Shown piece by piece: positions 8,508 through 25,873 of a DNA stretch of 64,000 bases; the first letter of the stretch is position 1, and each line of letters begins with the position of its first letter. The notes under the pieces were generated by a model. It saw only the letters and a program-made list of their open reading frames with translations, ran no database searches and was not told the DNA's origin. Origin of the DNA: an uncultured Acidobacteriota bacterium. Lineage in GTDB: Bacteria > Acidobacteriota > Terriglobia > Terriglobales > Acidobacteriaceae. The DNA lies in NCBI GenBank assembly GCA_903832295.1, contig CAILAZ010000039.1, positions 1-64,000 on the forward strand, read 5' to 3'. A program made the position numbers and the translations under genes.

Positions 8508-9811
8508 GCAGCAATCCAGTGAACCATGTGGCGGATCGGTTTGCGCGATTGAAGGCGTTGCAGCGCCCGGCCAGTGTGGCGCAAACGAAGATGACTGCCG
8601 GCACAATCGAAAGCCAGTGTGAGGCGCCCAGTCGCACTGCCGGCGAGACGGGGGCTGAGAGACTCGCAACGTTGCTGGGCGCAACCGTTTCGCGCACTCC
8701 TCATGGCGAGCACCTGTCACTGCTTTCGATTCACTGCGAACAGGCCCCGTGCATCGCTGATTCCGATGCACTCCATCTGCTGATGCCGAATGCTCCAGAG
8801 GAAGTCGCCGATTCATCGCAATGGCTTTTCCTGGATACAGAGACGACAGGGCTCTCCGGTGGCACAGGGACGTATCCATTCCTGATCGGCCTCTCGTGGT
8901 GGGAAGGCAGCAGACTCAAGATCGAGCAGCTGTTCATGCGCGAATTCAGCGAGGAGCGTTCCATGCTCGCCGCTGTCGCGGAGCGGTTGAGAGAGCGCCC
9001 GGTACTCGTAACCTTCAATGGCAAGTCGTTTGACTGGCCGCTGCTTGAGACCCGCTTCCGCATGGTGCGTGACATTGCGACGCCGCCGCTGCGCGCTCAC
9101 CTGGATTTCCTTCACCCGGCAAGGAACCTCTGGCGTCCGCGGCTTGGATCAGTGAAGCTGTCGCACCTTGAGCGTCATGTTCTGGGGTGGGATCGCGGGG
9201 AAGACATGAGTTCCGGCGATATCCCCAGGATCTATCTTGAATTCGTTCGCGGAGGAGATGCCGAGCCGCTGGTTCCCGTTTTTATGCACAATCAGATGGA
9301 CCTGCGAGGTCTCGCCGGACTCGCGGGCCGCATCCTGTCGATTTTCGGCGACCAGGAAAAGCCACTGGAAGATGGGCTTGAACTTTACGGACTGTCGCGC
9401 ATCTGCGAGCGGCGCGGCCAGGCGGAACGCGCACGAACAACGTACGAGCAGTCAATCGGCGCTTCGCTTCCGGTGGAGACAGATCGCGCTGCGCGCGCTG
9501 CCCTGGCGCAACTCGCGAAGCGCGATCGAGATTTTGATCGCGCTTGCGAACTCTGGGAGAGCCTGCTCGGGAATTCCCGCGAAGGATACGAAGCCTATGA
9601 GCAACTGGCAATCTATTACGAACACGAAGCCCGCAATGCACACCTTGCCCTGGCGATTACCCGTTCGGCGCTCGCGCAGCTGCGTTGCGCCCGCCAGTCA
9701 GCAATGATCAACGCCAGCCAATACCGCGCAAGCAAGCTCGAGTTCGAACATCGGCGCCTGCGGCTCGAGCGCAAGACTCAAGCGATGCCGCCGAGTTTGT
9801 TCAGCTCGTAG
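8504..9811 (+). CDS. mrfB: MrfB-type RNase H-like exonuclease with C-terminal repeats
   Basis: A 435-aa partner of the preceding helicase. The nuclease domain (residues about 105-275) shows DEDD-type acidic motifs: LDTETTG with Asp111, then LVTFNGKSFDWPLL, LDFLHPARNLW, and HNQMD near residue 261. YprB/MrfB proteins carry the same motifs. Residues about 290-420 form helical TPR-like repeats (ELYGLSRICERRGQAERA, then DFDRACELWESLL). The ATG at 8504 overlaps the mrfA stop. The same frame is open back to 8396, but the overlapping start is preferred because it matches coupled translation and the usual N-terminus. In B. subtilis the pair acts on mitomycin C damage independently of UvrABC; the same role here is inferred. 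Confidence 0.9.
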   Translation: MSSNPVNHVADRFARLKALQRPASVAQTKMTAGTIESQCEAPSRTAGETGAERLATLLGATVSRTPHGEHLSLLSIHCEQAPCIADSDALHLLMPNAPEEVADSSQWLFLDTETTGLSGGTGTYPFLIGLSWWEGSRLKIEQLFMREFSEERSMLAAVAERLRERPVLVTFNGKSFDWPLLETRFRMVRDIATPPLRAHLDFLHPARNLWRPRLGSVKLSHLERHVLGWDRGEDMSSGDIPRIYLEFVRGGDAEPLVPVFMHNQMDLRGLAGLAGRILSIFGDQEKPLEDGLELYGLSRICERRGQAERARTTYEQSIGASLPVETDRAARAALAQLAKRDRDFDRACELWESLLGNSREGYEAYEQLAIYYEHEARNAHLALAITRSALAQLRCARQSAMINASQYRASKLEFEHRRLRLERKTQAMPPSLFSS

Positions 9812-9863
9812 AATCATCCTGTACCAAGGTATCTACAAAGCTGCTGCCGCAGTGGCCACCGTA

Positions 9864-10586
9864 TCAGAAGAGGCGCGTCCATAGGTACGACACCGGCATT
9901 GCCAGCGCGAGCGCCGGCAGCATATTCGCAACTGGGAAGGCTTTGATTCCGCACACGCGAAAACCAGTGGCCATCAGGAGGAGTCCGCCAACCGACGAGA
10001 AATCGGCGATCAGTGCAGGAGTGGTGAGCGGCATGATGAATACCGCGCCATATGCGAGTGCCGCCTGCACCAGGAGTTGCGGCAGCGCAATCGCCGCCAC
10101 TGCATAGCCAAGGGTCGTGGCAAAAATGCCCGCAGTAAACAGATCCAGTACTGCCTTGGTCACCAGAATAGAGTCGTCTCCGCTGAAGCCTTCCTTCAGC
10201 GCCCCGAAGATTCCCATGCCGCTCGCACAGAACAGCACGACAATCGCGACAAAGGACTGGAGGTACTTTTCCTCTGAGAGCCCGGCCTCTGCATCCATCC
10301 TTGGCATGAACCGCTCGGCGTAGAGCCGCGCCATGTCGCTCAGCTTGCTGATCCCGCTCTCCAGGTAAATCAGTTCGCCGGTTAACTCACCCAGGATCAC
10401 GGACAGAACCATTGCCTGTAAATGCTTGACCTGACCAATCAGCACAACTCCGAGGCCAATGGAGCAAAGCCCGAACGTGAGTGTGAGGGCCGCCCGCAGG
10501 CGCTCCGGAACTTTATCGCCGAGAGCGGCGCCGGAGAGCCCTCCGACCAGAATGGCGGCGCTGTTTATAAACGGCCCCTTAATCAT
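9864..10586 (-). CDS. DUF554 family membrane protein (YdfK-like)
   Basis: A 240-aa integral membrane protein with about six or seven hydrophobic helices. It opens FINSAAILVGGLSGAALG and continues LTLTFGLCSIGLGVVLIG, typical of the DUF554 family, whose role is unknown. A longer frame reaches 10652, but GAGGAGAAG lies just upstream of the ATG at 10586 and the downstream sequence is the usual family start, so 10586 is chosen. It converges on the mrfAB operon with a 52-nt gap. Confidence 0.86.
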   Translation of the reverse strand: MIKGPFINSAAILVGGLSGAALGDKVPERLRAALTLTFGLCSIGLGVVLIGQVKHLQAMVLSVILGELTGELIYLESGISKLSDMARLYAERFMPRMDAEAGLSEEKYLQSFVAIVVLFCASGMGIFGALKEGFSGDDSILVTKAVLDLFTAGIFATTLGYAVAAIALPQLLVQAALAYGAVFIMPLTTPALIADFSSVGGLLLMATGFRVCGIKAFPVANMLPALALAMPVSYLWTRLF

Positions 10587-11130
10587 CAACTTCTCCTCGA
10601 ACCCTGCACAAGATTGAGAGCCACTGTGCGCGAGTGCTTCATCGTGCGGCACTGTACGCCGACTTCACTCAAGAAGTGCAAATAGCTCTGCCCTAGTATT
10701 CCATGGACGGGCGTCTCGTCCGAAGTTTCCGCGTAAACCAGCCCACAAAGAGGCAGGTGAATGCTATTCATTGACCGGATGCAAGGTATTCATTTGCCTT
10801 TATTCGCGACTCGGAACAAGGTCTTGAAGCCCCCAAACTTCAGGCATCGCTCGCCAAGGGATGGGCGCTTGTCGATCCATATGGTCGATGGCGCATTTTG
10901 AACGACTTCATCAAGGTGCACAGCATTCATCGTTTCATTGATTGAGCACACTCCGTCCGGCGATGGGCAGAGAACAGGTACGGAAGACTCCGTGGCAGCG
11001 GACAACAAGAGCTGACACTGAGTTGAAGAACCCTTAGCTGGAGATTTGCGGTGTACCACCTGGGGCTTGAAGTACTGGAGTGCAGTTAAAGATTAGGGAA
11101 ATTGATCGTCACACTGGGAGGTGTGCGCAC
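10587..11130. other. Intergenic region upstream of the porin, with a LysR-gene relic
   Basis: 544 nt between two divergent genes. An 89-codon frame on the minus strand (10790-11059) shows no recognisable domain and is not called. The notable content is 10766-10796, an almost exact inverted copy of the start of the LysR gene at 24929. The porin ribosome binding site (GGGAGGTG) is at the right end. Confidence 0.6.
10766..10796 (-). repeat. 31-bp inverted repeat, copy A: relic of a LysR gene start
   Basis: On the minus strand this matches 24926-24956 in 29 of 31 positions. It translates as MNTLHPVNE then TAG, where the intact LysR gene has MNTLHPINES; a single C-to-A change explains the stop. 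It lies between the DUF554 gene and the porin, 14 kb from the intact copy and in opposite orientation. Confidence 0.8.
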
Positions 11131-12733: not shown

Positions 12734-14833
12734 TCAGTCGGCTTGCAGGCGAAGCACAGCGTCAAGAGCCACCGCGCCGGTAGCATACACGCGTAGAGGA
12801 TTGATCTCCACCTCAAGCACTTCGGGATGTTCCATCAGCAACCGGCCCAGCGACATTGCAACGCTCGCAATAGCAGCGCGATCGCAAGCAGGAAGATTCC
12901 GGAAGCCATCAAGAAGCTTGCGCCCCCGCAGCCCGTTCAGCATCTCTTCCACATCCATCTTCTGCAAAGGCGCCAGCCGGACTGCGGTATCTTCCAGCGC
13001 TTCTGCCAGCACTCCACCCAACCCGATCATTACCACTGGCCCCCAGGAGGAATCCTGCATCCCGCCAACAATCAGCTCTACACCCGCTGGAGCCATCTCC
13101 TCCACCAGCACTTTGCCGGGGCTCCTGGAAGGGATGCGGGCGATCGCATCCAGCGCCGCATCCAACTCCTGCTCATTGCGAATGTTCAGATGCACTCCAC
13201 CAACATCAGTCTTGTGCGCGATGTCCGCCGCGGCAATCTTAACGACCACGGGCTTTTGCATCTGGCCAAAAGCGCCAAGGGCCTCGATACGTGAATGGCA
13301 AAGCACTCGCCGGGGGCTTTGTATTCCATACTGCTCCAGGATCGACTTGGCGCGGTATTCATCGCAATCGCCCACGATCCTCGGTTGCTGGCGAGGCGGG
13401 CACGGATCCTTCGCCTGGCTCACTCTCCAGCTAGCTTTGGAATCCGCCGCCAGCACAACTCCCGCAAGGGCCAACGCTGCCGGACCAGGAACCAGCGGCA
13501 CTCCGCCTTCATGCAAGATGCCGACCATATCGCAGATATCATCGGACGCACCCAGTATCCCAAGAATGAGCGGCTTCCCGGAATTTCTATTGACCGAGAC
13601 CAGTGCCGACGCCGATTCGATCACGACGGTCTCCGCAAGCGAGAATGCCAGCACCATGTCTATTTTCGGATCTGTACACACCGTGCCAACAATCTCCGGA
13701 AAGGCGGGCAGCGGCAATCCGGTATCCACCGGATTATTAACAAAAGTGAGCGGCGGCAACAGCGACCGCACGCGCCGGATTGTGTCCTCCTCCAGTACCG
13801 GCATCGCGATCCCGGCACTCTTCAGCTCACTCATGATGAGCATCCCGGGGCCGGCCTGTCCTGTCACCAGGGCCACGGTTGGATTCTCCCTCGGACCTAG
13901 ACGCACACAGGAGAGGATACAGGCGGCCTGTGCTGCGGATTCGATGGAATCCACCACCACCGCGCCTGCCTGAGCCAGAGCGGCCACAGTGCGCTGGTGC
14001 GACCCCATCAGGTTGCCGGTATGAGACATTGCAAACTCGCGGACGTCAGCACGTCCCGCCGCCAGGACGATCACTGGCTTTCGCGGCGTAACTGCGCGCA
14101 TGGCATCAAACAGCTTGCGCCCTTGCGGAACACCCTCCAGCGCCACAACAATTACCGCCGTATTTGGATCGTCCGCCAAAAACGGAAGGACATCGGCAGA
14201 GCCAACATCGAGGGCATTTCCCAGTCCTACCGCCATGGAAATACCTTCCCCCATGCGGTCAATCATGAAACAGAGGCTGCCGTTCACTCCTCCCGATTGT
14301 GAGACGATCCCTATTCGCCCTTTGCGCATCTGCTCGGCTCTGCGCATAAATGTCGGGAAACAATTGCCCTGCGGATCTAAAAATCCGGCGGTATTCGGGC
14401 CAAGCAGTCGCAGGCTCGACCGCCGGCAGATATCAGCCAGCAGCCCCTGCATCGATGCTCCATTGGCACTCGCCTCGGCGAAACCGCTGGAGATCGTCAA
14501 CAGTCCGCCCACACCAAGTACCGCAGCTTCCTGAGCCACTGCCACGCTGTATCGCGCGGGGATTGCCATCACCGCGAGGTCCACAACCTCCGGCAGCGCT
14601 GCAATGCTTGGAAAACAGTCAATGCCCTGGACCCGCTTCTCACTGGGATGAACCGCAAAGACCCGCCCGGGGAAGGCAGCCAACGCTTTCAAAATGCGTG
14701 ATCCGGCTTTCGTCAGGTCCGACGAAGCTCCCACTACGGCGATCGATTTGGGTTTTAACAGGCGAGAGAGGTTACGACGACGGGCATCTTCGTTCGCGCC
14801 GCTTTCGGCGGCGCCAACAGCGGTTGCATCCAT
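12734..14833 (-). CDS. NDP-forming acyl-CoA synthetase (fused alpha/beta)
   Basis: A 699-aa enzyme joining the two halves of ADP-forming acetate-CoA-ligase-type enzymes, which interconvert acyl-CoA + ADP + Pi with acid + CoA + ATP. The order is: CoA-binding Rossmann domain (IAVVGASSDLTKAGSRIL near residue 35), ligase-CoA domain with the likely phospho-histidine in GNLMGSHQRT, then an ATP-grasp domain (EYRAKSILEQYGI, VVVKIAAADIAHKTDVGGV). The ATG at 14833 follows GGAGG with 9-nt spacing and is preferred over a longer frame to 14929. It is the last gene of the leftward catabolic operon, 151 nt after the enoyl-CoA hydratase. It could activate a product acid or recover ATP from an acyl-CoA. The acyl group is unknown. 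Confidence 0.88.
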   Translation of the reverse strand: MDATAVGAAESGANEDARRRNLSRLLKPKSIAVVGASSDLTKAGSRILKALAAFPGRVFAVHPSEKRVQGIDCFPSIAALPEVVDLAVMAIPARYSVAVAQEAAVLGVGGLLTISSGFAEASANGASMQGLLADICRRSSLRLLGPNTAGFLDPQGNCFPTFMRRAEQMRKGRIGIVSQSGGVNGSLCFMIDRMGEGISMAVGLGNALDVGSADVLPFLADDPNTAVIVVALEGVPQGRKLFDAMRAVTPRKPVIVLAAGRADVREFAMSHTGNLMGSHQRTVAALAQAGAVVVDSIESAAQAACILSCVRLGPRENPTVALVTGQAGPGMLIMSELKSAGIAMPVLEEDTIRRVRSLLPPLTFVNNPVDTGLPLPAFPEIVGTVCTDPKIDMVLAFSLAETVVIESASALVSVNRNSGKPLILGILGASDDICDMVGILHEGGVPLVPGPAALALAGVVLAADSKASWRVSQAKDPCPPRQQPRIVGDCDEYRAKSILEQYGIQSPRRVLCHSRIEALGAFGQMQKPVVVKIAAADIAHKTDVGGVHLNIRNEQELDAALDAIARIPSRSPGKVLVEEMAPAGVELIVGGMQDSSWGPVVMIGLGGVLAEALEDTAVRLAPLQKMDVEEMLNGLRGRKLLDGFRNLPACDRAAIASVAMSLGRLLMEHPEVLEVEINPLRVYATGAVALDAVLRLQAD

Positions 14834-14984
14834 GACGAAATGCCTCCACGAATTCCACCTCTTCCCGCATGCCTGCACAGTGGAGGCGCACTGCGCGGAC
14901 ATACGAGAGGAGGCGGTTCCGCAAAACAATCGAGTTTAAAGAACACGCAGGCCTGCGACTCGTCTCATCAGGGCGAGTTGTGGC

Positions 14985-15815
14985 TTACTTGCTCTCGGCG
15001 GTTACCTTCGCCTGCTGTCTTTCATTCGAGGGAAACTTGGCTGGACGCTTATTCCGAATCCCGTCAATGCCCGCGATCAGGTCATCAGAGAAGAATCCCA
15101 TCATCTCCAGAACCGCGGAGTGATCGAACACGGCACTCTCCTTGAGCAGCCACTGGTTCAGCACGCGCTTGGTAAACTTCACTGCGTCACGCGGGCCGTT
15201 CGCCAGCTTCGTGGCCACATCCATGGCCTTCACCAGCACCTGGTCGTCCGGCACGGCCAGGCTGATCAGGCCGATACGCTCAGCCTCTCTGCCGGTCAAC
15301 ATCTCGCCGGTCATCAGGTAATACTTGGTCTTTGCCATGCCGCACAGCAGCGGCCATAGCATGGCTGCGTGGTCTCCGGCGGCAACGCCCATGCGAATGT
15401 GCCCATCGCCCAGCTTTGCATTCTCCGCCATGATGCTGATATCAGAGAGCAGCGCAACCACAACCCCAGCTCCAACAGCCACGCCATTCACCGCAGCAAT
15501 GATGGGCTTGGAGCAGCGCAGGAGGTTGTACACAATGTCCCGCGTCTCATCGATAATGGCTACGATTTCCTCATAGTTGCCGTGTGCATGCAGAACACGA
15601 TCCAAGTCGCCGCCAGCCGAAAATGCGCGTCCGGCGCCGGTAATCACAACCACGCGCACTGCCGGATCGCGGTCAATCATCGCCCACACTTCAGAGAATG
15701 CCTGGTGCATCGCAGCATCGGCGGCGTTGAGTTTGTCAGGCCGATTCAGTGTCATCAGGAGGACGCCGTCGTCGCTGATTTCAAACTTGATGTCTTTAAA
15801 ACAGGAATAGTCCAT
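14985..15815 (-). CDS. Enoyl-CoA hydratase/isomerase family protein
   Basis: A 276-aa crotonase-fold enzyme. It has the [18 protein letters not shown] substrate-loop segment near residue 22, the first oxyanion-hole region [15 protein letters not shown] near 65, and the second at [18 protein letters not shown] near 110. The usual catalytic glutamate near residue 120-145 cannot be assigned by eye, so hydratase against isomerase or hydrolase is open. ATG 15815 follows CGAGGTT; the longer frame to 15920 adds a sequence that does not fit the family. It sits in the catabolic operon between the mutase and the NDP-forming CoA synthetase. Confidence 0.9.
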
Positions 15816-15936
15816 TACGAACCTCGGTACCTCATGCAAAACGGTCAACGCTCCGGTCAGCAGCTGCGTTACCCGTTGGATTGAGAAGCCGGACATCATC
15901 CCCAGCTTCGTTGTGCACACTTCGCCCGGTGACCGG

Positions 15937-17628
15937 TTAAATCACCTGGCTTGGCTTGTAGGTTCCATATACCCCGCGAAGAGCATCACAGATCTCGCCG
16001 AGGGTCGCATATGCCTTGACCGCATCCACCAGGGGCAGAACCAGGTTCTGGTTAGCCCGTGCTGCAATAATCAGACCGGCCAGTGTCTTCTTCACCATCG
16101 CGGAGTCGCGCGTCGCACGAAGTTCCTTCAGGTGAGCAAGCTGCCGGAGTTCGGATTCAGGATTTGTCCGCGTGACTGGAATCTCCCCAACCTTTTCGCT
16201 CTGGAAGGCATTGAGCCCAACCAGGATGCGGTCCTTGGTCTCAATCTGCCGTTGATAGCGATAAGAAGCCTCACCGAGTTCCCGCTGGTAATAGCCGTTC
16301 TCGATGCAGCGCACCGCGCCGCCCAATGACTCGATCTTGTCCAGGTACTCGAGCACCTTCTGTTCCAGCACATCGGTCAGCGCCTCAATGGCGTAGGAAC
16401 CGCCCAGAAGATCGACCGAACCGGTGACGCCGGCTTCATTCGCCACAATCTGCTGGGTGCGCAAAGCGATGGTAGCCGCTTCTTCCGTGGGAATCGCGAA
16501 CGCTTCGTCGTAAGAGGAGGTAGCAACCGTCTGCACGCCTCCCAATGCGGCCGCCAGCGTCTCAATTGCCACGCGCGCAATATTGTTCAATGGCTGTTGC
16601 GCAATCAAATTGCCGCCGAGCGTGTAGGCAAAAATCTTGAGCTTCATGGAGTCAGGGTTCTTGGCTCCATAGCGCTCTTTCATCAGCCTGGCCCAGATGC
16701 GCCGTCCTGCGCGGAACTTCGCCACCTCTTCCGGCAGGTCGATACCCACCGAGAGGAAGGTCCAGATCTGCGGCGCGAACGAATCAATATCCAGACCGCG
16801 GCGCAGGCATTCATCCACATAGGCCAGTCCGTCGGCAAATGTAAATGCCAGTTCCTGCGCCGCCGTGCTGCCGCTGTCGCGTATGTGGTAGCCGCTCATC
16901 GCAAGGGAGGTCCATCCCGGCAATTCCTTGGCGCAGTACTCCATCACGTCCGCCGAGAGCTTCACTCCAGCTTCCGGTCCAAAGATGTACGCCCCGCGTG
17001 CGACATACTCTTTCAGAATGTCATTCTGAAGGAACATGCGCGTGTTCTTGATGTTCACTCCCTGTTTTTCAAAGCAGGCAATGTACATCGCCAGCGTGAT
17101 CGGACCAATCGCATTGGCAGTGGTCCGGATCTGGCGCACCTTCTCCAGCGGAATGTCCTTGAACAGGCGTTCCATGTCGGCCAGCGAGCCGATATGAACT
17201 CCGGTGACACCCACCTCGCCAACGGCGAAAGGATGATCGGCGTCATAGCCGCACTGCGTGGGCAGATCCAGCGCGATGGAAAAACCCGTCTGTCCGCGCT
17301 CCAGCAACATGCGATAGCGCTCATTCGCCTCTTCCGCAGAGCCGAAGCCGGAGTACATTCCCATTACCCAGAACTGGCTGCGGTACATGGTCGGTGAAAC
17401 GCCGCGCGTGAACGGATACGCTCCGGGATAGCCGATCTTCTCTGCAAGAGGAGCGCCTTTCGGCCAATCTGCTTCGGTATAAACGCGCTCGAGCGGAAGA
17501 CCTGAGATCGTCTTGAACTCAGCTCGCCGTTCAGGGTCAGCCGCCAGTTGCGGAGCGAGAATGTTCTCTTCCCACTCCGCCTGCGGACTGGCAACAGTCT
17601 TTTGCTTGTCAGTAGCTTCTGCGCTCAT
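15937..17628 (-). CDS. Methylmalonyl-CoA mutase-type B12 enzyme, large (catalytic) subunit only
   Basis: A 563-aa acyl-CoA mutase TIM-barrel subunit. It rearranges the carbon skeleton of a CoA ester using adenosylcobalamin. Family segments: PFTRGVSPTMY, GFSIALDLPTQCGYDADHP, FLQNDILKEYVARGAYIF, SGYHIRDSG (with the conserved His). By hand alignment, the residues matching Tyr89 and Arg207 of methylmalonyl-CoA mutase are kept (GMYSGFG; EYVARG), unlike isobutyryl- and 2-hydroxyisobutyryl-CoA mutases. The usual IRQY is GMY here, so the Arg before Tyr is lost. The protein ends without a B12-binding domain, and no partner subunit is encoded in the window. It starts 7 nt after the thiolase stop. The substrate cannot be named. 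Confidence 0.9.
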   Translation of the reverse strand: MSAEATDKQKTVASPQAEWEENILAPQLAADPERRAEFKTISGLPLERVYTEADWPKGAPLAEKIGYPGAYPFTRGVSPTMYRSQFWVMGMYSGFGSAEEANERYRMLLERGQTGFSIALDLPTQCGYDADHPFAVGEVGVTGVHIGSLADMERLFKDIPLEKVRQIRTTANAIGPITLAMYIACFEKQGVNIKNTRMFLQNDILKEYVARGAYIFGPEAGVKLSADVMEYCAKELPGWTSLAMSGYHIRDSGSTAAQELAFTFADGLAYVDECLRRGLDIDSFAPQIWTFLSVGIDLPEEVAKFRAGRRIWARLMKERYGAKNPDSMKLKIFAYTLGGNLIAQQPLNNIARVAIETLAAALGGVQTVATSSYDEAFAIPTEEAATIALRTQQIVANEAGVTGSVDLLGGSYAIEALTDVLEQKVLEYLDKIESLGGAVRCIENGYYQRELGEASYRYQRQIETKDRILVGLNAFQSEKVGEIPVTRTNPESELRQLAHLKELRATRDSAMVKKTLAGLIIAARANQNLVLPLVDAVKAYATLGEICDALRGVYGTYKPSQVI

Positions 17629-17635
17629 GGTTCTG

Positions 17636-18853
17636 TTATCCGACCTTTACCACAACAGATTCGGCTTCACCGACTCCGCCGCAAATTCCAACCACGCCAT
17701 AGAACGGACGCGATCCGCCAGCCAGTTTGTAACGGCGGCGAAGTTCATACATGAGGGTCATGACCAGACGCCCGCCGGTCGCACCCGTTGGGTGGCCCAG
17801 CGCAATCGCGCCGCCGTTGACGTTGACCTTCTCGCGAATCTTCTCGGCACGCTGCTGGTCCTTGCCCGCCAGAATATAGGAGGAGAGCAGCGGAACGGCG
17901 GCAAACGCCTCATTGATTTCGATCAGGTCCACATCATCAATTGTCATCTTTACCTTGTTCAACGCCAGGCGAATCGCTTCCGCCGGAATCGATGCGATGC
18001 GGTCAGGATGGCCGGAGGCCATCGCCCATCCCATCAAAGTCGCCAGCGGCTCTTTTCCGCGACGAGTCGCTTCGGTTCTGGTCATCAGGCACAGGGCCGA
18101 TGCGCCCGTGCTCAGGCCAGGTGCGTTGGCAGCGGTCACCGTCGGGCTGTCATACACGGTCGGCAGCTTTGCAATCTTCGCGTATTCAATGTCAGGACGG
18201 GGCGACTCGTCGTCCACCACCGTGATCTTCTTGCCCTTGCCCTGCGGAACTTCGATGGGCATCAGCTCGTCGTCAAATTTTCCTTCTGCTTTCGCCTTGG
18301 CGAAGTACTGCTGGCTGCGAATCGCCCAACGGTCCTGCTGTTCGCGGGTAATACCGAAATCCACGGCTTCTTCTCCAGCCTGCACGGCGCGGGGCTTGCC
18401 GGTCATGGGACAGGCGATCACAAGCTGATCCTTCAGCCGGACATCGCCAAGCCTTGCACCCCAGCGCAGGTCATAGAGGAAGTACGGCACGCGGCTCATG
18501 TTCTCCACGCCACCCGCCAGGGCAACGCCGGTTTCACCCAGGCGAAGACCACGGCAGGCCATGTTGACCGCCACCATGGACGAGCAGCAGGCACGGTCCA
18601 TGGTGTAGGCAACACTGGATGGGGGAATGCCTGCCTCGATCAATACCTGGCGCGCAATCGAACGGTCTCCGCCCGGCAGGTTCACGCCGGTGGCCACTTC
18701 TTCAACGTCTGCCGGTGTGATTCCGGCGCGACGAATCGCCTCGGAGAAAACAATGCCGCCGAGTTTGGGATGCGTAAAGTCCTTGAGAGCACCGGCAAAT
18801 TTACCGAATGGGCTCCGCACTGCGCTGATTACAACTACTTCTTCTTGCATCAT
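17636..18853 (-). CDS. Thiolase (acetyl-CoA acyltransferase family)
   Basis: A 405-aa thiolase that cleaves or condenses beta-ketoacyl-CoA. All three catalytic elements are visible: the nucleophile in [11 protein letters not shown] (Cys90 by alignment), the histidine of [10 protein letters not shown], and the C-terminal cysteine in [18 protein letters not shown] is also present. Length is normal. The N-terminus ([18 protein letters not shown]) is standard and the ATG at 18853 overlaps no upstream gene; the gap to the CoA-transferase is 79 nt. In this operon it most likely performs the last, thiolytic step, releasing acetyl-CoA or a similar unit. Chain-length preference cannot be read from sequence. 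Confidence 0.93.
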
Positions 18854-18932: not shown

Positions 18933-20153
18933 CTACAGGATTCCGTCGGTCTTCAACTTACCGATCTGTTCCTCACTGTAGCCAAGCCATTCGTTTAACA
19001 CCTCGGCATTATGCTGTCCCAGTGCAGGAGCAGGGCGGGCGAGCGGTTCTCCGGCGCCTGACATCTTTGCCACGGGGCCGATCAGCTTCACACTGCCCAG
19101 AATTGGATCTGGCACGTCGATCAAGAGTTTGCGTGCGGCCACGTGAGGATCGTTGTAGATTTCCTCTGCCGTCTGCACCGGGCCGACAGGCAATCCAGCG
19201 GCCAGCAATTTGTTCACTGCCTCCGCCTTCGTGTATTTACTGAACCAGTTGCGGATCACTTCGCCGAGCCAACCGGTCATGTTCGTGGCCCTCTCCGGAC
19301 CCGATGTTGCTCCCTCGTGCCCAACCAGGTCAGGACGCTCGATTGCCTGGCAGAACTTTGCCCAGTCGCCTTCGGTGGCCACAATGATACCCACATAGCC
19401 ATCCTTGCACGCGAACGGTCCCCACGGTGCCATGTACGGCTCGCGTCCGCGCTGGAGCACATGCTTAGTTAATGAGTATGCAGTGATCGAACGTTCCGCC
19501 AGCGCGATGATCGTGTCATACATCGAGACGTCGATGAACTGCCCCAGCCCCGTCTGCTTGCGTTGGTAGAGTGCCAGCAGAATCGCGTTGGCGGCGTTCA
19601 TGCCGGAAACGATATCGCCCAGGGCCACTCCCAGCCAAGTCGGCGGGCCGTCGGCGCTGCCGCAGGTGTTCATCAGCCCGCCCATCGCCTGCGAAATAAT
19701 GTCGTAGGCCGGACGCTTGCTGTATGGCCCCAGGTAGCCTTCCATGCTCCCAAAGCCGGAGATGCAGGCATAGATCAGGCCTGGGTTCTCTTTGCAAAGA
19801 TCCTTGTATCCAAGCCCCATGCTGTCCAGCACGCCGGGGCGGAAGTTCTCCACCACCACGTCACTCTGCGTCGCGAGTTCGCGGAAGACCTTGCGTCCAC
19901 TCTCGTCCTTCAGGTTCAGCGTGACACTGCGCTTGTTGCGATTGAAGCGAAGAAAATATCCGCTTTGAGTTTCGCCTTTGTCGTTCTTGATCTTCGGCGC
20001 ACCGCCACGGGCTGTATCGCCACCTTCTGGGCGCTCGACCTTGATGACGTCAGCACCTTGGTCGGCCAGCATCATCGTGCAGTACGGTCCAGCCACTTGA
20101 ATTTCAAAGGAAAGTACTTTTATACCTTCCAAAGGCCTGCGAAGCGGATTCAT
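18933..20153 (-). CDS. Class III CoA-transferase (CaiB/BaiF/formyl-CoA transferase family)
   Basis: A 406-aa enzyme that moves CoA between carboxylic acids. It opens RRPLEGIKVLSFEIQVAGPYCTMML across its first 35 residues, with ADQGADVIKVERPEGGD next. The conserved catalytic Asp sits in GVALGDIVSGM near residue 170. VENFRPGVLDSMGLGY and PAYDIISQAMGG are family-typical. ATG 20153 follows TTTGGAGAA; a longer frame to 20246 lacks support. It lies in the catabolic operon, 157 nt after the AMP-forming ligase, so the operon holds more than one means of making CoA esters. Donor and acceptor are unknown. Confidence 0.92.
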   Translation of the reverse strand: MNPLRRPLEGIKVLSFEIQVAGPYCTMMLADQGADVIKVERPEGGDTARGGAPKIKNDKGETQSGYFLRFNRNKRSVTLNLKDESGRKVFRELATQSDVVVENFRPGVLDSMGLGYKDLCKENPGLIYACISGFGSMEGYLGPYSKRPAYDIISQAMGGLMNTCGSADGPPTWLGVALGDIVSGMNAANAILLALYQRKQTGLGQFIDVSMYDTIIALAERSITAYSLTKHVLQRGREPYMAPWGPFACKDGYVGIIVATEGDWAKFCQAIERPDLVGHEGATSGPERATNMTGWLGEVIRNWFSKYTKAEAVNKLLAAGLPVGPVQTAEEIYNDPHVAARKLLIDVPDPILGSVKLIGPVAKMSGAGEPLARPAPALGQHNAEVLNEWLGYSEEQIGKLKTDGIL

Positions 20154-20310
20154 AGTTCGTTCTCCAAATACTCTGAAAAATCTGGCAGAACCAGCAGCAA
20201 CCCGCGAATCTTGCAAGCGATTCGCGAGCCGCGCTGGTCCTGCCATTGCTGATTACTTTTCAAACCTGCACCCAAACTTGCCTCCAGCTTACTTGCATCT
20301 GCTATGAGAC

Positions 20311-21984
20311 TTAAACGGTTGCAGCCTTTGCCTCCAGCGCTTCAGCCTCAACCCTGTTCAGGATGTCGGCACGGAGCGCCTTCTTATCAACTTTGCCAGC
20401 TGCGGTAAGCGGGAAGCTGTCCATGAAGACAAACCTCTCCGGGATCCAGATCTTCGACGCGCCCTTCTGTTCCATGAACGCCCTGATTCCCTTGTCATCC
20501 ACCTTCATGTTCGGAACCAGCCGGATGTAGGCGCAAACTCTCTCGCCCAGAATCCTGTCTGGAATGCCGACCACTGCCGCGTCAAGAATGCCGGGTGCCT
20601 GGCAAATCAAGTCTTCTACCACCGAGGGTGTGATGTTCTCACCACCGCGGATGATCATGTCCTTGATTCTGCCTGTGATCTTCACCCGGCCACCAGGAAG
20701 AAGTCGCGCCTGGTCGCCTGTTCTGAAGAAACCGTCTTCCGTGAACTGTCTCGCGTTCACTTCAGGGCTCTTTACATATCCCGGGAAGATACATGCCCCG
20801 CGAATGCAAAGCTCGCCATCCACTCCCGCTGCAACTTCCACGCCGGATTCTGGATTGACGATCTTGACTTCATCCCAAGGACAACACGGCATGCCAACGC
20901 TCTCGCAGATTGTGTCGATTTCATCGTTCAGTTTGCTGCGGCACAGAAGGCCTTCCACCATGCCAAACTCGTTGATGTAGGTGGCGCGTGGAATCTTCTG
21001 CTTCACCTGCCGGATCAGTTCCGGAAGGCTCGGCTCACCGCCCGCCATTACCTTGGTCAACGACGAAATATCGAAGTTCGATACCTCCGACGCCTCGATG
21101 ATCTTCCGCCACAGACTCGGGACGGCAGGCATATACGTCGCCTTGACCTCCTGAATGCGGCGGGCAATATCTTCGGGACGCGTGGAATCCAGCAGCACCA
21201 GCGTGTAGTTAAAGACGAACGTGCCTACAACGTTCAGCAGTGCAAGATTGTGCCCAACCGGAACAACGATCAAACAGACATCCTTGGTCGTCATCTCCCA
21301 GTCGCGCTGGTGCGTCTCCACATTGCACAGATATTGCCCGTGCGTGCGCGGTGCACCCTTCGGCAACCCGGTGGTTCCACCCGACGGAGCCACGTGGCAC
21401 ACATCGGTTGTGACTGGACGTCTGCGCTCAAGCTCTTCCAAATCCTGCGCAGAAAGAGGCGTGCTCATCAGATCCTCAAGCCTGTCTGTGAATCCCGGGG
21501 TCTTCCCGTCTGCCCTCACCGAAATAATGTTCTTCAGTGTCGGACACATCGACACAACTTCTTGCAGCAGCGGAGACAGATCATCTTTGCGGTAGGTCGC
21601 CGGTCCGATATATGCCACTGCTTCGTGCACGTTGCCCAGATGTGCAACTTCAAGCTTCTTGTGTCCGATGTTCAGGAGCACCATCACGCCGCCAACCTTG
21701 TAAATAGCAAGCAGCGCATATACAAACTCCGCCCAGTTGGGCAACTGCAGGAGCACGCAGTCACCCTTCTTGACGCCGATCCGCAACAGGCCCGCGGCAA
21801 GGTTATCAACCTTGCCGCGAAGTTCCCGGTACGTCATTGTTGTCTGGTCATCTATGAGGACGATTTTGTTGGGAAAGTATTCGCTCGACCTGTCAAAAAC
21901 AGCAGAAATATTTGTGGATGGCCACCAGCCCATCCGAACGTACTTATCAACCAGCTCTGGTTTGAACGTAGGAAATTCGATCAT
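20311..21984 (-). CDS. AMP-forming acyl/aryl-CoA ligase (ANL superfamily)
   Basis: A 557-aa adenylate-forming ligase, nearest by eye to the EntE/AliA group that activates aryl or cyclohexane carboxylic acids. Motifs: SGGTTGLPKGAPRTH near residue 190 (ATP P-loop), EFGMVEG, GELCIRG, FFRTGDQARL, ITGRIKDMIIRGGENI, and the catalytic lysine near the end in LTAAGKVDKKAL. The N-terminal RMGWWPSTN is like the EntE-type start. ATG 21984 is preferred over the frame start at 22026 because the N-terminus then matches relatives; the Shine-Dalgarno (AAGG) is modest. It probably activates the imported acid in the catabolic operon. The substrate is inferred, not shown. Confidence 0.9.
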   Translation of the reverse strand: MIEFPTFKPELVDKYVRMGWWPSTNISAVFDRSSEYFPNKIVLIDDQTTMTYRELRGKVDNLAAGLLRIGVKKGDCVLLQLPNWAEFVYALLAIYKVGGVMVLLNIGHKKLEVAHLGNVHEAVAYIGPATYRKDDLSPLLQEVVSMCPTLKNIISVRADGKTPGFTDRLEDLMSTPLSAQDLEELERRRPVTTDVCHVAPSGGTTGLPKGAPRTHGQYLCNVETHQRDWEMTTKDVCLIVVPVGHNLALLNVVGTFVFNYTLVLLDSTRPEDIARRIQEVKATYMPAVPSLWRKIIEASEVSNFDISSLTKVMAGGEPSLPELIRQVKQKIPRATYINEFGMVEGLLCRSKLNDEIDTICESVGMPCCPWDEVKIVNPESGVEVAAGVDGELCIRGACIFPGYVKSPEVNARQFTEDGFFRTGDQARLLPGGRVKITGRIKDMIIRGGENITPSVVEDLICQAPGILDAAVVGIPDRILGERVCAYIRLVPNMKVDDKGIRAFMEQKGASKIWIPERFVFMDSFPLTAAGKVDKKALRADILNRVEAEALEAKAATV

Positions 21985-22043
21985 GGCACCTTGTCCCGTA
22001 ATACGAGCTTTAGTCACGCGACCCAAATGCAGCCGATGTTTCG

Positions 22044-23228
22044 TTAAAGGAGCTTCTTGTCAATTGCCCCTGGACGTGCCTGTGCCGGTCCGAAATTCTC
22101 TGGGCAGGAGAGCAGCCCTTCCGGCCAGCGAACGCAGTTCACCTTTTCATACCGGGCGTCCGCGTCGAAGCACCAGTTGCATGCTGCGCAGCGCACAATG
22201 TCCTTCGTCCGGTCTTCCTTGGCCTTCACGCACCAGTCCGGGTCCGCCAGCAGGGCGCGGCACAGCCCAATCACGTCAGCCTTACCCTGCGCAAGAATCT
22301 TCTCAGCGTGTGCAGGCTCCCGGATCTTTCCGGCAATGATGATCGGAGTCTCGTAGCCGGCCTCGCGGACCGCCTCACGAATGCCTTCTGACAGAAACAC
22401 GTGTGTTCCATCCGGCCACCAGAAGCCAGGGCTCATGCGATGACCGCTATAACCGGACATCGGATCGGGCGGATGACCTTCTGCTGGGGTAACGGCATCT
22501 TCAAAGCTGCTTCCCGCCGATACGCTCACATAGTCTGCGCCGAGTTGGGCAAACTTGATCGCAATCTTCGAGCTCTGGACAAGCGTGTTCCCGTTCAGAT
22601 GGAAGTCTTCGCCGTTGATCCGCACTCCCAGTGGAAAGTTCTCGCCAACCTCTTTCCGGCAGGCTTCAAACACTTCCACTGGCAGCCGCATCCTGTTGGT
22701 CAGGTTGCCGCCATACTGATCAGTGCGCTTGTTGGCCCTGGACAGGAAGGACGCCAGGCAATATGCGTGGGCACAGTGAATTTCAATGAAGTCGAACCCA
22801 GCCTCAACGGCGCGTCTGGCCGCAGCTGCATGGTTGGCTACAATCTGCGGAATCTCTTCCGGCTTGAAGTCCTCAACCCGCTGCCGCCATCCCGAGCGCG
22901 ACAGTTTCAGGAACTGCATGATCTGCAATCCGATTTTTGTTTCTGGGCTTGCCGCCCGGATCGCATTGACCATGGCCTTGAGGCCGGGAACATATTCATC
23001 GCTCGACAGGCGAATGTTGTACGGACTCTTCGACGGAATTACCACCGCTGCTTCGACCACTAGCGCGCCGACGCCGCCCTTTGCTTCGCGGATGTAGCGT
23101 TCGGTAAGAGCTTCGGTTACATTGCCATCTTCCGTGGCTAATCCAGAAGCCATCGAAGTGCGCTGCACCCGGTTTGAAAACTTCACTCCACGCATCGTAA
23201 TCGGTGAAAACAGATGTTCGAACTTCAT
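22044..23228 (-). CDS. Old Yellow Enzyme-type NAD(P)H:flavin oxidoreductase with Fe-S site
   Basis: A 394-aa FMN TIM-barrel reductase of the 2,4-dienoyl-CoA reductase/BaiCD/trimethylamine dehydrogenase branch. The N-terminus is typical (LFSPITMRGVKFSNRV). FIEIHCAHAYCLASFLSR, RTDQYGGNLTNRMR and DVIGLCRALLADP mark the barrel. Cys347, Cys350, Cys353 and Cys365 (CxxCxxCx11C) would bind a 4Fe-4S cluster. The C-terminal FAD/NADPH module of dienoyl-CoA reductase is absent: the protein ends about 30 residues after the last of these cysteines, so an external electron donor is implied. Naphthoyl-CoA reductases belong to the same superfamily. ATG 23228 follows GCGAGGAG. The gap to the MFS gene is 34 nt. 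Confidence 0.9.
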   Translation of the reverse strand: MKFEHLFSPITMRGVKFSNRVQRTSMASGLATEDGNVTEALTERYIREAKGGVGALVVEAAVVIPSKSPYNIRLSSDEYVPGLKAMVNAIRAASPETKIGLQIMQFLKLSRSGWRQRVEDFKPEEIPQIVANHAAAARRAVEAGFDFIEIHCAHAYCLASFLSRANKRTDQYGGNLTNRMRLPVEVFEACRKEVGENFPLGVRINGEDFHLNGNTLVQSSKIAIKFAQLGADYVSVSAGSSFEDAVTPAEGHPPDPMSGYSGHRMSPGFWWPDGTHVFLSEGIREAVREAGYETPIIIAGKIREPAHAEKILAQGKADVIGLCRALLADPDWCVKAKEDRTKDIVRCAACNWCFDADARYEKVNCVRWPEGLLSCPENFGPAQARPGAIDKKLL

Positions 23229-23262: not shown

Positions 23263-24693
23263 CTACTTCCTGGCAGCGGCAGCAGCAGCTCTCCATTCGC
23301 TGAAGGCAATCTGCGCCCGTCCGGTCATGCTCGCTCCAAGGATGGCTGCCGCGGCAATTAACATCGGAATCGCAAACGTCAGATACACCTTGGACAGCGG
23401 CCATTTCCAGGCCAGCAGCAAGCCGCCAATCATCGCAGCAACAACCGATCCGCAACGACCCACGCCCAGTCCCCAGCTCACACCCGTGGAGCGGTTCATC
23501 GTCGGGTAGAAGGCCGCGGTCAGTGCGTTCAATCCAACCTGGCTTCCGCTTGTGCCCATGCCCGCAATCAGAATGCAGACAACGGTGAGCCAAAGCGTGG
23601 AGGTCACATGGCCAATCAGGAAGATCGCGCAACCGCCCATGATCATCGTTGAGATCAGGACCTTATACGGATTGAACTTGTCCATCAGCAGCCCGATCGA
23701 GATGCCGCCCAGGGTGCCGCCCAGCAGATAGACCGACGCAATCACGGACGCTTTGGTAAGCGACATGCCAATGGCGTGGACAATCGTTGGCAGCCACAAC
23801 GTGAAGAAATAGACCACCATAATGTTGATGAAGAACGCGACCCACAGGCACATGGTTCCGCTGGCAAGCCCCTTTGCAAAGAGACCTTTCACCGGGAAAC
23901 CCGTCAGCTTCTGCTCGGCAAGCACGAACTTCGCATTCGTGATGTCCTCGCCCGGAGCAATCTTCTGCAAGTTGCGCGCAATCTTCTCCTGGCTCTTGCC
24001 ATTCACTACCAGGTAGCGAATCGACTCCGGCAGGAGGAAGTACAGAAGAACCGTAATCAGGATCGGTGCGCAGCCGCCCAGAACAAAGACAGAGCGCCAG
24101 CCCCAGATTCCCACCATTCTCGCCGCAAGGATGCCGCCGCCCGCGCCGCCAACCGTGAAGCCGCAGAACATCAGCGTAGTCAGGAACGAACGCTTGCGTT
24201 GCGGGCAGAATTCAGAGGTGATCGTGACCAGGTTCGGCATCGCTCCGCCCAGGCCCATTCCGGTGAAGAACAGAACTCCCATCATCTGGTGAACGTTCTG
24301 CGTAAACGCCGTTGCCAAGCTGAACAGGCCAAATGCAAACACCGACGTCATAATGATGACCTTGCGCCCAAACTTGTCTGCCATTGGGCCAAAGATGAAG
24401 GAACCGATCATCAGGCCGACCAGGATGGTCGAAAAGATCGGCGCCATTGCGCTCGGTGCAAGTTTCCAGTCCGCCCTGATTGCGGGCGCGATGAACCCCA
24501 GCGACTGTGCGCTGTAGCCATCAAGGCAGATCGTCAGGAAGCAGACAGCCACAATCAGCATCTGCGTGCCTGAAATATTGTGCGAATTGATGAAATCCTG
24601 AACGTTGATGATCCGTTGGGTGCCGCTCTGTTTGTCCTGAGCCGATGTCGCGCCGCTCGGCGCCACTGCTGTTGCAGAGATCTCGTTGCTCAT
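23263..24693 (-). CDS. MFS transporter, aromatic acid:H+ symporter (AAHS) type
   Basis: A 476-aa, twelve-helix inner-membrane transporter, first gene of the catabolic operon. It resembles the PcaK/BenK branch of the major facilitator superfamily: LTICLDGYSAQSLGFIAPAI in helix 1, with the conserved Asp, then GPMADKFGRKVII in the loop between helices 2 and 3, and LPESIRYLV before the central loop. The N-terminal 45 residues are polar and cytoplasmic. ATG 24693 follows AGGTGAA. It is divergent from the LysR gene across 235 nt, so both promoters are there. The cargo is probably an aromatic or similar organic acid; this is inferred from family and neighbours. Confidence 0.92.
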   Translation of the reverse strand: MSNEISATAVAPSGATSAQDKQSGTQRIINVQDFINSHNISGTQMLIVAVCFLTICLDGYSAQSLGFIAPAIRADWKLAPSAMAPIFSTILVGLMIGSFIFGPMADKFGRKVIIMTSVFAFGLFSLATAFTQNVHQMMGVLFFTGMGLGGAMPNLVTITSEFCPQRKRSFLTTLMFCGFTVGGAGGGILAARMVGIWGWRSVFVLGGCAPILITVLLYFLLPESIRYLVVNGKSQEKIARNLQKIAPGEDITNAKFVLAEQKLTGFPVKGLFAKGLASGTMCLWVAFFINIMVVYFFTLWLPTIVHAIGMSLTKASVIASVYLLGGTLGGISIGLLMDKFNPYKVLISTMIMGGCAIFLIGHVTSTLWLTVVCILIAGMGTSGSQVGLNALTAAFYPTMNRSTGVSWGLGVGRCGSVVAAMIGGLLLAWKWPLSKVYLTFAIPMLIAAAAILGASMTGRAQIAFSEWRAAAAAARK

Positions 24694-24893
24694 TGCGTTT
24701 CACCTGAAATATTTAGCGTTTATTGCGCTTCTTATCAGAGCCACTACCTTTGTGTCCCCTGGCTCCCAGGCTCGCGAGGCATGCCGGTATCCTCCGCAAA
24801 CCATCAGCCAGTCGCTGTACAGCAAGTCCCTGCCAGTACGCATTGGGGGAAATCCCGCGCCATCCCAGCTGCTGCTCAAGGCTTTGTTTAAGT

Positions 24894-24904
24894 CGAGGTA
24901 TAAT
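24894..24904 (+). promoter_or_regulatory. Putative LysR-gene -10 element
   Basis: TATAAT at 24899-24904, 24 nt before the LysR ATG. No good -35 at 16-18 bp. It sits between CGAG and CTCG half-sites (CGAG-N9-CTCG), which could be part of an autoregulatory LysR site. Confidence 0.4.
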
Positions 24905-24925
24905 GTCTCGCGCCCCGGATTAAGA

Positions 24926-24956
24926 CAAATGAATACCTTGCATCCAATCAATGAAT
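24926..24956 (+). repeat. 31-bp inverted repeat, copy B (start of the LysR gene)
   Basis: Spans the LysR start codon and its first nine codons. It matches the minus strand of 10766-10796 in 29 of 31 positions. The two copies bracket the porin and the whole catabolic operon. Confidence 0.8.
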
Positions 24957-25873
24957 CGCATGCATTATCCCAAGTAAACCTGAATTTATTGGTGGTTCTA
25001 GAGGCGCTTCTCGCCGAACGCCACGTCGGTCGCGCTGCAACCCGCCTCCGCTTGACACAGTCTGCCGTCAGCCATGCCTTGAAGCATCTGCGCGAAGTTT
25101 TCAACGATCCGTTATTTATTCGCACCACCGTGGGGGTGCTGCCTACTCCGCGAGCTTTGGCCCTGGTGGATCCCCTCTCCGAGGCACTCCAGAGCGTGCG
25201 CCGGATACTCCATCCCGACTCACCCTTTGACCCGCGGGTCGCAACCGACTGCATCGTCCTCGGAACTACCGACTACTCCAGCCTTGAACTCATACCTGCG
25301 CTGATTCCATTTCTGCAGCAGAACGCGCCCAATATTCACGTGGTCATGCGAAACCTCTGTCTTGACAACATCGTCTCGGATCTGGATGAACGGGAATACG
25401 ACATCGCCGTCGCGCCCATCAGTGAGCGGCTTCCTAAGCGCCTGGCAACCGTTGCCCTCTTCCAGGACCACATCACCCTGGCCGCAAGGATTGATCACCC
25501 ATTGCTTCGCGACGGCCTTACGCTGGAAGGGTTTGCCCAGTTGCGTCACCTTCTCGTGGTTTCCAGCAGGAGTGAAAACACAGCCGCGCACACGACCCTG
25601 AAGCCTTACGGCCTCGATGAAAGCAATGTCGGGATGGTCATTCCCCACTTCGGCGCCGCTGGGTTCATCGTCGCGCACAGCGATCTCGTCATGCTGGTGC
25701 CATCCCTGCTCGCCAAGCGCTATGAACGCATCGCCGGATTCACCACCCACGAATTGCCGATCCCCAACCGGCCTTCCTTTGAAATGGGACTGGTGTTCAG
25801 CCGTGAGCGCGCTGGAATTGAGCCGGCCCTGGCCTGGTTTATTTCCGCCATCAAGCAGCTGTCGGTCGCTTAA
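24929..25873 (+). CDS. LysR-family transcriptional regulator of the catabolic operon
   Basis: A 314-aa regulator. The N-terminal winged HTH is clear: LNLLVVLEALLAERHVGRAA then LRLTQSAVSHALKHLR at about residues 18-58, then FIRTTVGVLPTPRAL. The C-terminal two-lobe ligand domain (about 95-310) resembles the NodD/NahR/LinR group. The ATG at 24929 matches the normal LysR N-terminal length; the frame is open to 24686 but that would read through the divergent promoter region. It is divergent from the MFS gene and so is the likely activator of the operon, with an aromatic or CoA-related inducer; the inducer is unknown. The start region is duplicated as a relic at 10766-10796. Confidence 0.9.
   Translation: MNTLHPINESHALSQVNLNLLVVLEALLAERHVGRAATRLRLTQSAVSHALKHLREVFNDPLFIRTTVGVLPTPRALALVDPLSEALQSVRRILHPDSPFDPRVATDCIVLGTTDYSSLELIPALIPFLQQNAPNIHVVMRNLCLDNIVSDLDEREYDIAVAPISERLPKRLATVALFQDHITLAARIDHPLLRDGLTLEGFAQLRHLLVVSSRSENTAAHTTLKPYGLDESNVGMVIPHFGAAGFIVAHSDLVMLVPSLLAKRYERIAGFTTHELPIPNRPSFEMGLVFSRERAGIEPALAWFISAIKQLSVA

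Follow-up and report, generated by a model that had tools for sequence, protein, structure and literature searches.

A single-domain Old Yellow Enzyme with a predicted [4Fe-4S] cluster encoded beside an aryl-acid CoA ligase in an uncultured Acidobacteriota bacterium

Results

The gene and its operon

The window analysed here, a stretch of 64,000 nucleotides from an uncultured Acidobacteriota bacterium (contig CAILAZ010000039.1), contains a tight run of eight minus-strand genes, with gaps of 7-79 bp as their starts were called, of which the second encodes an Old Yellow Enzyme (OYE; Table 1). The operon appears to be degradative, with a CoA-linked acid as its substrate. In its mutase, Tyr92 and Arg211 were found by alignment at the methylmalonyl-CoA-mutase-type specificity positions, which we take to be those holding the substrate carboxylate in methylmalonyl-CoA mutase, and these residues suggest a branched dicarboxyl-CoA intermediate in the pathway. 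No mutase small subunit was found in the operon, and no relative of the mutase in the other OYE neighbourhoods searched; a free-standing B12-binding protein is encoded on contig C50 of the same genome.

Table 1. Features of the operon and of the OYE gene, in positions of the window
Feature	Position	Strand	Remarks
Single-domain FMN/[4Fe-4S] Old Yellow Enzyme, 394 aa	22044..23228	-	PF00724 only; ribosome-binding site and ATG; cofactors predicted
4Fe-4S ligand motif C347-C350-C353-C365 (CxxCxxCx11C)	22134..22190	-	Read in translation; clade alignment
Active-site H151, H154, Y156	22761..22778	-	Alignment to 6qkg (2-naphthoyl-CoA reductase, NCR); Y156 aligns with NCR proton donor Y197
R203, FMN pyrimidine-ring arginine	22620..22622	-	Aligns with NCR R245
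MFS transporter, aromatic acid/H+ symporter type (PcaK-like, below cut-off)	23263..24693	-	
AMP-forming aryl-acid CoA ligase, EntE/DhbE/salicylate type	20311..22026	-	H259-N260 corresponds to EntE H234-N235
CaiB/BaiF (family III) CoA-transferase	18933..20246	-	
Thiolase (acetyl-CoA C-acyltransferase)	17636..18853	-	
Methylmalonyl-CoA-mutase-type large subunit	15937..17628	-	Nearest solved structure 2-hydroxyisobutyryl-CoA mutase
Enoyl-CoA hydratase/isomerase (crotonase family)	14985..15920	-	
ADP-forming acyl-CoA synthetase-like protein	12734..14929	-	
LysR-type regulator, divergent	24686..25873	+	Probable operon regulator, from its position

The OYE gene starts with the ATG at 23228, preceded by GCGAGGAGT, and its stop codon ends at 22044; the plus-strand frame across the interval is interrupted by stops, and the gene lies on the minus strand. 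The FMN barrel PF00724 was the sole Pfam domain in the product (173.9 bits against a cut-off of 27). An initial annotation had described a CxxCxxCx11C motif at Cys347-Cys350-Cys353-Cys365 and a chain that stops about 30 residues later, without the FAD/NADPH module of 2,4-dienoyl-CoA reductase. Both points were borne out by the translation, in which the motif stands exactly as claimed and the chain ends 29 residues past C365 with no C-terminal FAD/NAD(P)H module. As the next open reading frame, its start called as TTG, begins 17 bp after the OYE stop, there is no room downstream for a decayed FAD module.

Two MAGs titled Deltaproteobacteria (G061 and G062) were found to hold relatives, L035 (74% identical) and L036 (71%). 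The length, tail and Cys motif of the window OYE recur in L035, down to the same final residue, and at this level of identity the recurrence indicates that the architecture is more than chance. Differences between the two genes were distributed 83/52/224 over the three codon positions, and of the differing codons 154 are synonymous and 103 non-synonymous, a pattern that fits purifying selection on the protein. L036 contains a stop and a frameshift, yet it matches the window OYE through residue 394. Truncation by frameshift or mis-assembly was therefore rejected, since the tail is conserved across independent genomes and no remnant lies downstream; the gene at 22044-23228 is complete, not broken.

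In a 395-genome sample of the phylum of those two MAGs, relatives of 47-74% identity were found in 10 genomes as 11 genes, G061 and G062 included. Within the window's own phylum, relatives 45-49% identical over nearly the whole length were present in 5 of 396 genomes (its own excluded), and 16 further genomes of the 396 gave partial, more distant relatives at E 1e-55; none of the three same-genus genomes searched held a close relative. The window together with the 11 genes of the G061/G062 group (L035, L036, L073-L080 and L082) provided 12 loci for comparison. Ten encode intact single-domain proteins, L036 is broken, and in L077 (genome G278; 8063-10660; 56% identical) the barrel and Cys motif continue into Fer4_20 (PF14691, 2.3e-25) and Pyr_redox_2 (PF07992, 6.2e-34) domains. 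This fused module is of the GltD/NfnB/PreT-type NAD(P)H:Fe-S kind, unlike that of dienoyl-CoA reductase, and the fusion gene has one in-frame TAA in its barrel part.

Placement among Fe-S Old Yellow Enzymes

The description of the protein as an Fe-S OYE agreed with its phylogenetic position. In a tree of 52 rows, a hand-picked subset of the fetched sequences in which FadH and others are long-branched, the window OYE fell within a clade of 17 rows (support 100/100) nested among Fe-S OYEs, and five NamA/XenA-type OYEs were set apart from the remaining 47 rows by a 100/100 branch. The eight-row outgroup does not form one side of a branch, three of its rows falling on the wrong side, and four rows lacking the motif (L038, L042, L089b and L092b) lie on the Fe-S side, long-branched or beside FadH. 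Outside the tree are the duplicates L060, L062, L063, L065 and L068, the partial L110, L036 and L077 with their stops, and L104. Rooted at the NamA/XenA-type OYEs, the short proteins nest among full-length Fe-S OYEs, so that the FAD module was probably lost in the window OYE clade. The placement gave no support to a non-Fe-S OYE that had gained cysteines. A neighbouring clade (93/86) comprises a second group of short OYEs, 12 rows of 371-383 aa with a CxxxCxxCx11C motif; a single common origin of both short Fe-S groups gave an AU p of 0.051 with the odd row L088 included in the named group. No published account of a single-domain Fe-S OYE clade was found in the open-access literature searched.

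C347, C353 and C365 are present in all 14 rows of a clade alignment and C350 in 11 of them, while all seven rows of the window OYE's own subclade keep the four cysteines. Occupancy by a [4Fe-4S] cluster and by FMN is predicted from sequence. The AlphaFold model of the protein (pLDDT 78.6, pTM 0.83) loses confidence at residues 240-265, across the Cys motif and onward from 369; blocks within 341-370 reached 71, 52 and 50, and the cluster site was not confirmed by it.

Active site and comparison with known enzymes

According to parts of PMC6502838, the FMN pyrimidine ring of standard OYEs is surrounded by one arginine and a pair of histidines, of which 2-naphthoyl-CoA reductase (NCR) retains the arginine (R245) alone; in NCR, E341 offsets the arginine charge and, together with the loss of the histidines, lowers the FMN potential, and Y197 is the proton donor. 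Counted along the alignment, C192, V195 and E341 of NCR are replaced in the window OYE by H151, H154 and G321, respectively, so the protein has a standard OYE site without either NCR feature. The HxxH pair (H151 and H154), the tyrosine donor (Y156) and the FMN arginine (R203) are all invariant in the 14-row alignment. At an ordinary OYE site, NAD(P)H reduces FMN directly. Given such a site, and the loss of one cysteine in 3 of the 14 rows, the initial annotation's view that the enzyme needs another electron donor is not established.

Among the structural matches of the AlphaFold model, NCR was first (Z 41.0), followed by DCR (38.7), TMADH (38.6) and single-domain OYEs (about 37). NCR (PDB 6qkg/6qkr), a type III aryl-CoA reductase, was matched with an rmsd of 3.0/2.6 over 350/347 residues at 29-30% identity. 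It shares with the window OYE the FMN/4Fe-4S barrel (cofactors predicted in the latter) as well as the aligned tyrosine donor and FMN arginine; unlike NCR, the window OYE has no FAD domain, keeps both OYE histidines and lacks Glu341. Type III aryl-CoA reductases are characterised by FMN, FAD and [4Fe-4S] in about 73 kDa and by the low-potential FMN site of NCR, whereas here 394 aa without an FAD domain, and H151, H154 and G321, were found. Fold and cofactor tuning disagree, and the tuning was given more weight on the question of potential. The earlier suggestion of an aryl-CoA reductase thus survived in part: the top structural match and the CoA-dependent aromatic-type clusters of relatives speak for it, but the low-potential features of NCR are absent. 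In the portions of the literature that cover them, FAD is carried by NCR and all four phenanthroyl-CoA-series reductases, and these enzymes, DCR and the bile-acid enzymes are one-piece proteins, some 70 kDa in size, that combine two flavins with a cluster. The 2,4-dienoyl-CoA reductase FadH (PDB 1ps9) has the barrel fold and 4Fe-4S cysteines in common with the window OYE, but differs in its 672 aa, its own FAD/NADPH module and the lack of an HxxH pair.

An OYE acting on ortho-substituted benzoyl-CoA is found in 2-aminobenzoyl-CoA monooxygenase/reductase and salicylyl-CoA 5-hydroxylase (NF006101), whose OYE half is of the non-Fe-S type. The NF006101-like OYE of the window's genome (contig C205) has no Cys motif, and no NF006101-type FAD monooxygenase partner was found in that genome at E 1e-30 (assembly about 95% complete), where NF006101 positions 3-144 gave only a 22-bit match. 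At the same threshold the monooxygenase was present in 9 of 37 genomes, namely 8 of the 12 window-phylum relatives (not G718, G789, G791 or G672), 1 of the 10 in the G061/G062 group (G061) and none of the 14 same-family controls. An ACMR-type monooxygenase was therefore rejected as the partner of the window OYE, since with no match in its genome the window would go unexplained.

Gene neighbourhoods of relatives

The relatives behind the gene-context evidence are 44-74% identical and mostly of another phylum, and the counts are uncorrected for kinship; part of the neighbour genes was run through Pfam/NCBIfam, and some labels are BLAST groupings with one annotated member. In 8 of the 12 loci, an EntE-type ligase lies no more than 1.4 kb from the OYE (the window, L036 as fragments, L073, L074, L076, L078, L079 and L080); the contig of L082 ends first, and L035, L075 and L077 are without it. 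Among the 13 best solved relatives of the window ligase, 12 are named as 2,3-DHB- or salicylate-activating and one as a 'peptide arylation enzyme'. The EntE His234-Asn235 pair is kept in all seven ligases aligned (the window's and six relatives) and absent, by alignment, from the ligase of the tryptophan-type cluster L102 described below. In DhbE, Asn235 and Ser240 bind the substrate hydroxyls, as stated in part of PMC10296737. As the stretch bearing Ser240 is altered in most of the aligned ligases, the simplest guess for the substrate would be an ortho-hydroxy acid without a 3-hydroxyl.

L075 has two UbiD-family genes (one just under the TIGR00148 cut-off) and a gene nearest 4-hydroxybenzoyl-CoA reductase alpha, below its cut-off, while phenylphosphate-synthase-like neighbours were seen in L079 (PPDK_N) and L074 (PEP-utilizer). 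Aldehyde:ferredoxin oxidoreductase (AOR) adjoins the OYE in L074 and L082, molybdopterin oxidoreductases lie near it in 4 of the 12 loci (L073 and L082 by annotation, two by BLAST grouping), and L077 has caprolactamase/acetophenone-carboxylase-like genes, below cut-off. The 10-kb contig of L035, the nearest relative, has none of the operon's other genes and no aromatic-type context. At L082:25-8177, the OYE lies with AOR, Amidohydro_2, molybdopterin oxidoreductase and UPF0261 genes in an arrangement matched to no known pathway.

Of the 10 clade genomes in the G061/G062 group, 8 had a match above cut-off to BamA (TIGR03200), which we take to be a marker of anaerobic benzoyl-CoA degradation; among 10 comparators, 2 had such a match and a third narrowly missed it (Fisher p 0.023, uncorrected for kinship). 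These comparators are genomes listed without an OYE match rather than a random draw. As no BamA over cut-off was found in the window's genome, the aromatic context of the relatives need not carry over to the window.

In the window's phylum, the L102 OYE has as neighbours genes nearest kynureninase and tryptophan 2,3-dioxygenase (both under their equivalog cut-offs), together with an acyl-CoA dehydrogenase, a crotonase and a member of the benzoate-CoA-ligase family that scores above its cut-off; the arrangement resembles a layout for converting tryptophan to anthraniloyl-CoA. Similar kynureninase- or dioxygenase-like genes were recognised by eye in L103, L105, L106 and L109, and in L109, a distant clade member, a free-standing NF006101-type monooxygenase half adjoins the OYE. 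C350 is lost in three of the four aligned OYEs from these tryptophan-type clusters, so the Fe-S cluster can be dispensable in the clade. All four (L102:8474-9892, L103:9158-10600, L105:8050-9498 and L106:8841-10277) are extended at the C-terminus by about 90 residues; by eye the extension recalls a fibronectin-type domain, and Pfam gave nothing for it in L102 at E 1e-5.

The electron donor

No donor gene was found in the window operon. The possibility of a fixed NADPH partner encoded elsewhere, raised in the initial annotation as evidence against its reading, was addressed by a crude regex motif scan of 20 neighbourhoods for GxGPAG or a Rossmann start plus ferredoxin motifs, which revealed no fixed NAD(P)H partner gene apart from the single GltD-type fusion; besides that fusion, in G278, the scan picked up the L109 monooxygenase and three genes taken as unrelated. 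The fusion suggests that the cluster may serve as an electron port for an exchangeable donor. It is also the clearest clue to the nature of that donor, giving the order NAD(P)H, FAD, Fe-S, Fe-S, FMN. A search with its GltD-type module gave matches in 24 of 25 genomes (the miss being G718), including all 10 comparators, again genomes listed without an OYE match and not a random draw; the window's genome had five matches on four contigs. Being so widespread, the module is a general part, and indicates a class of donor rather than a partner gene. Dihydropyrimidine dehydrogenase also combines an NAD(P)H-FAD module, Fe-S and an FMN barrel, the types of part found in the G278 fusion; its barrel is DHODH-type where that studied here is OYE-type, and the window OYE has no attached module. 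Isoprene reductase was considered as a precedent and set aside, since the relevant part of PMC10134865 places it with NfnB-type proteins rather than with the OYEs.

Discussion

Proposed function

The reading that we prefer, tentatively and with slightly less than even confidence, is that the window OYE is an ene-reductase for the CoA thioesters of ring acids, supplied through its [4Fe-4S] cluster with electrons from a separate, exchangeable donor. It builds on the observed domain make-up, Cys motif, clade and ligase linkage and on one natural GltD-type fusion; from these we infer the direction, donor and substrate. The adjacent EntE-type ligase would make the CoA thioester from a ring acid, probably ortho-substituted (salicylate-like). 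A separate low-potential protein, either a GltD/NfnB-type NAD(P)H:Fe-S flavoprotein or a ferredoxin, would deliver electrons singly to the cluster, which lies close to the C-terminus; they would pass from cluster to FMN and on as hydride, so that H2 is added across a C=C bond of the thioester, with Y156 supplying the proton and H151/H154 holding the carbonyl. The exchangeable outside donor would thus replace the covalent FAD/NADPH module of dienoyl-CoA reductase. The window pathway would proceed from uptake through CoA ligation to ene-reduction, possibly of a ring tautomer, and later through crotonase hydration or ring opening to thiolysis. Across the loci, the common thread is a CoA-linked ring acid, perhaps bearing an ortho hydroxyl or amino group, met by a standard barrel with an exchangeable electron supply.

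Alternative readings

The alternative that survives best, unlikely as we judge it, is an ordinary ene-reductase of the YqjM/XenA type, in which FMN takes its electrons from NAD(P)H without an intermediary and the Fe-S cluster is either a structural element or a vestige. The standard set H151, H154, Y156 and R203, invariant throughout the clade alignment, is what such an enzyme would have; single-domain OYEs of similar size are among the top PDB matches, and the 3 of 14 aligned relatives without C350 keep the gene nonetheless. Retention of all four cysteines in the seven rows of the window's own subclade argues against it, as do the fusion of one relative to an Fe-S NAD(P)H module and the 100/100 separation from the five NamA/XenA-type OYEs.

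An enzyme running in reverse, as a dehydrogenase, was also considered, and is more doubtful. Here a CoA-linked ring substrate would be oxidised and electrons would pass from FMN through the cluster to ETF, as in trimethylamine dehydrogenase (TMADH), a route on which an FAD module is needless. The clusters of TMADH and histamine dehydrogenase do hand electrons straight to ETF, and both enzymes bind ADP in the place of FAD, according to parts of PMC6502838. They share the Fe-S OYE barrel with the window OYE (Z 37.0-38.6, TMADH at 38.6 being among the best structural matches), but their ADP-binding C-terminal part is missing from it and their substrates are amines. The best NCBIfam match of the window OYE was likewise to an enzyme that makes a double bond, BaiCD (NF041087), at 224.4 bits, far under the 825-bit cut-off, and with a model of 642 positions against 394 aa; BaiCD desaturates a 3-oxo bile-acid CoA ester, as stated in part of PMC8044976. 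Mycofactocin-system FadH/OYE genes, moreover, adjoin an ETF alpha gene. Against oxidation, the partner in the G278 fusion is an NAD(P)H oxidoreductase, the AOR neighbours suggest incoming reducing power, and no ETF was found beside clade members among the annotated neighbours, which are part of all neighbours.

An NCR-like reductase of very low potential is very improbable: NCR entries are the top structural matches (other listed entries reach at most 38.7), Y156 matches the proton donor Y197 and relatives lie in aromatic-type gene clusters, but both low-potential features are missing (H151, H154 and Gly321 stand in place of the lost histidines and Glu341), NCR and the four phenanthroyl-CoA-series reductases all bear FAD in the source parts cited for them, and 8 of the 10 G061/G062-group clade genomes already have BamA, the marker of the classic benzoyl-CoA route.

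Implications

Under the preferred reading of an ene-reductase with a separate donor, a clade that keeps the barrel and cluster motif, drops FAD and has once gained a GltD-type module suggests that the cluster can be a docking port. The window OYE would then offer a compact system, open to experiment, in which to study the entry of electrons into ring-reducing flavoenzymes, and is a candidate for the reductive step in poorly understood CoA-dependent pathways of phenolic and amino-aromatic acids. If single rings were reduced, it would constitute an ATP-free bypass of benzoyl-CoA reductase. A bolder and rather improbable extension is that the clade adds a fourth and modular type to the ring-reducing enzymes: single-domain FMN/[4Fe-4S] proteins, independent of ATP, that would dearomatise single-ring ortho-hydroxy- or ortho-amino-benzoyl-CoA by way of the keto or imine tautomer with exchangeable Fe-S donors. 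Were this so, salicylate- and anthranilate-type acids would have a shortcut to 2-oxocyclohexane-carboxyl-CoA without benzoyl-CoA reductase or an oxygenase.

The window's own genome encodes a second single-domain OYE (C253/L043:17473-18588), which has the CxxxCxxCx11C motif of the neighbouring short clade; roughly 2 kb from it is a B12-binding open reading frame of about 216 aa. Short OYEs also occur as tandem pairs at L089:9345-11858 and L092:9431-11706, in each of which the first has the cluster cysteines and the second does not.
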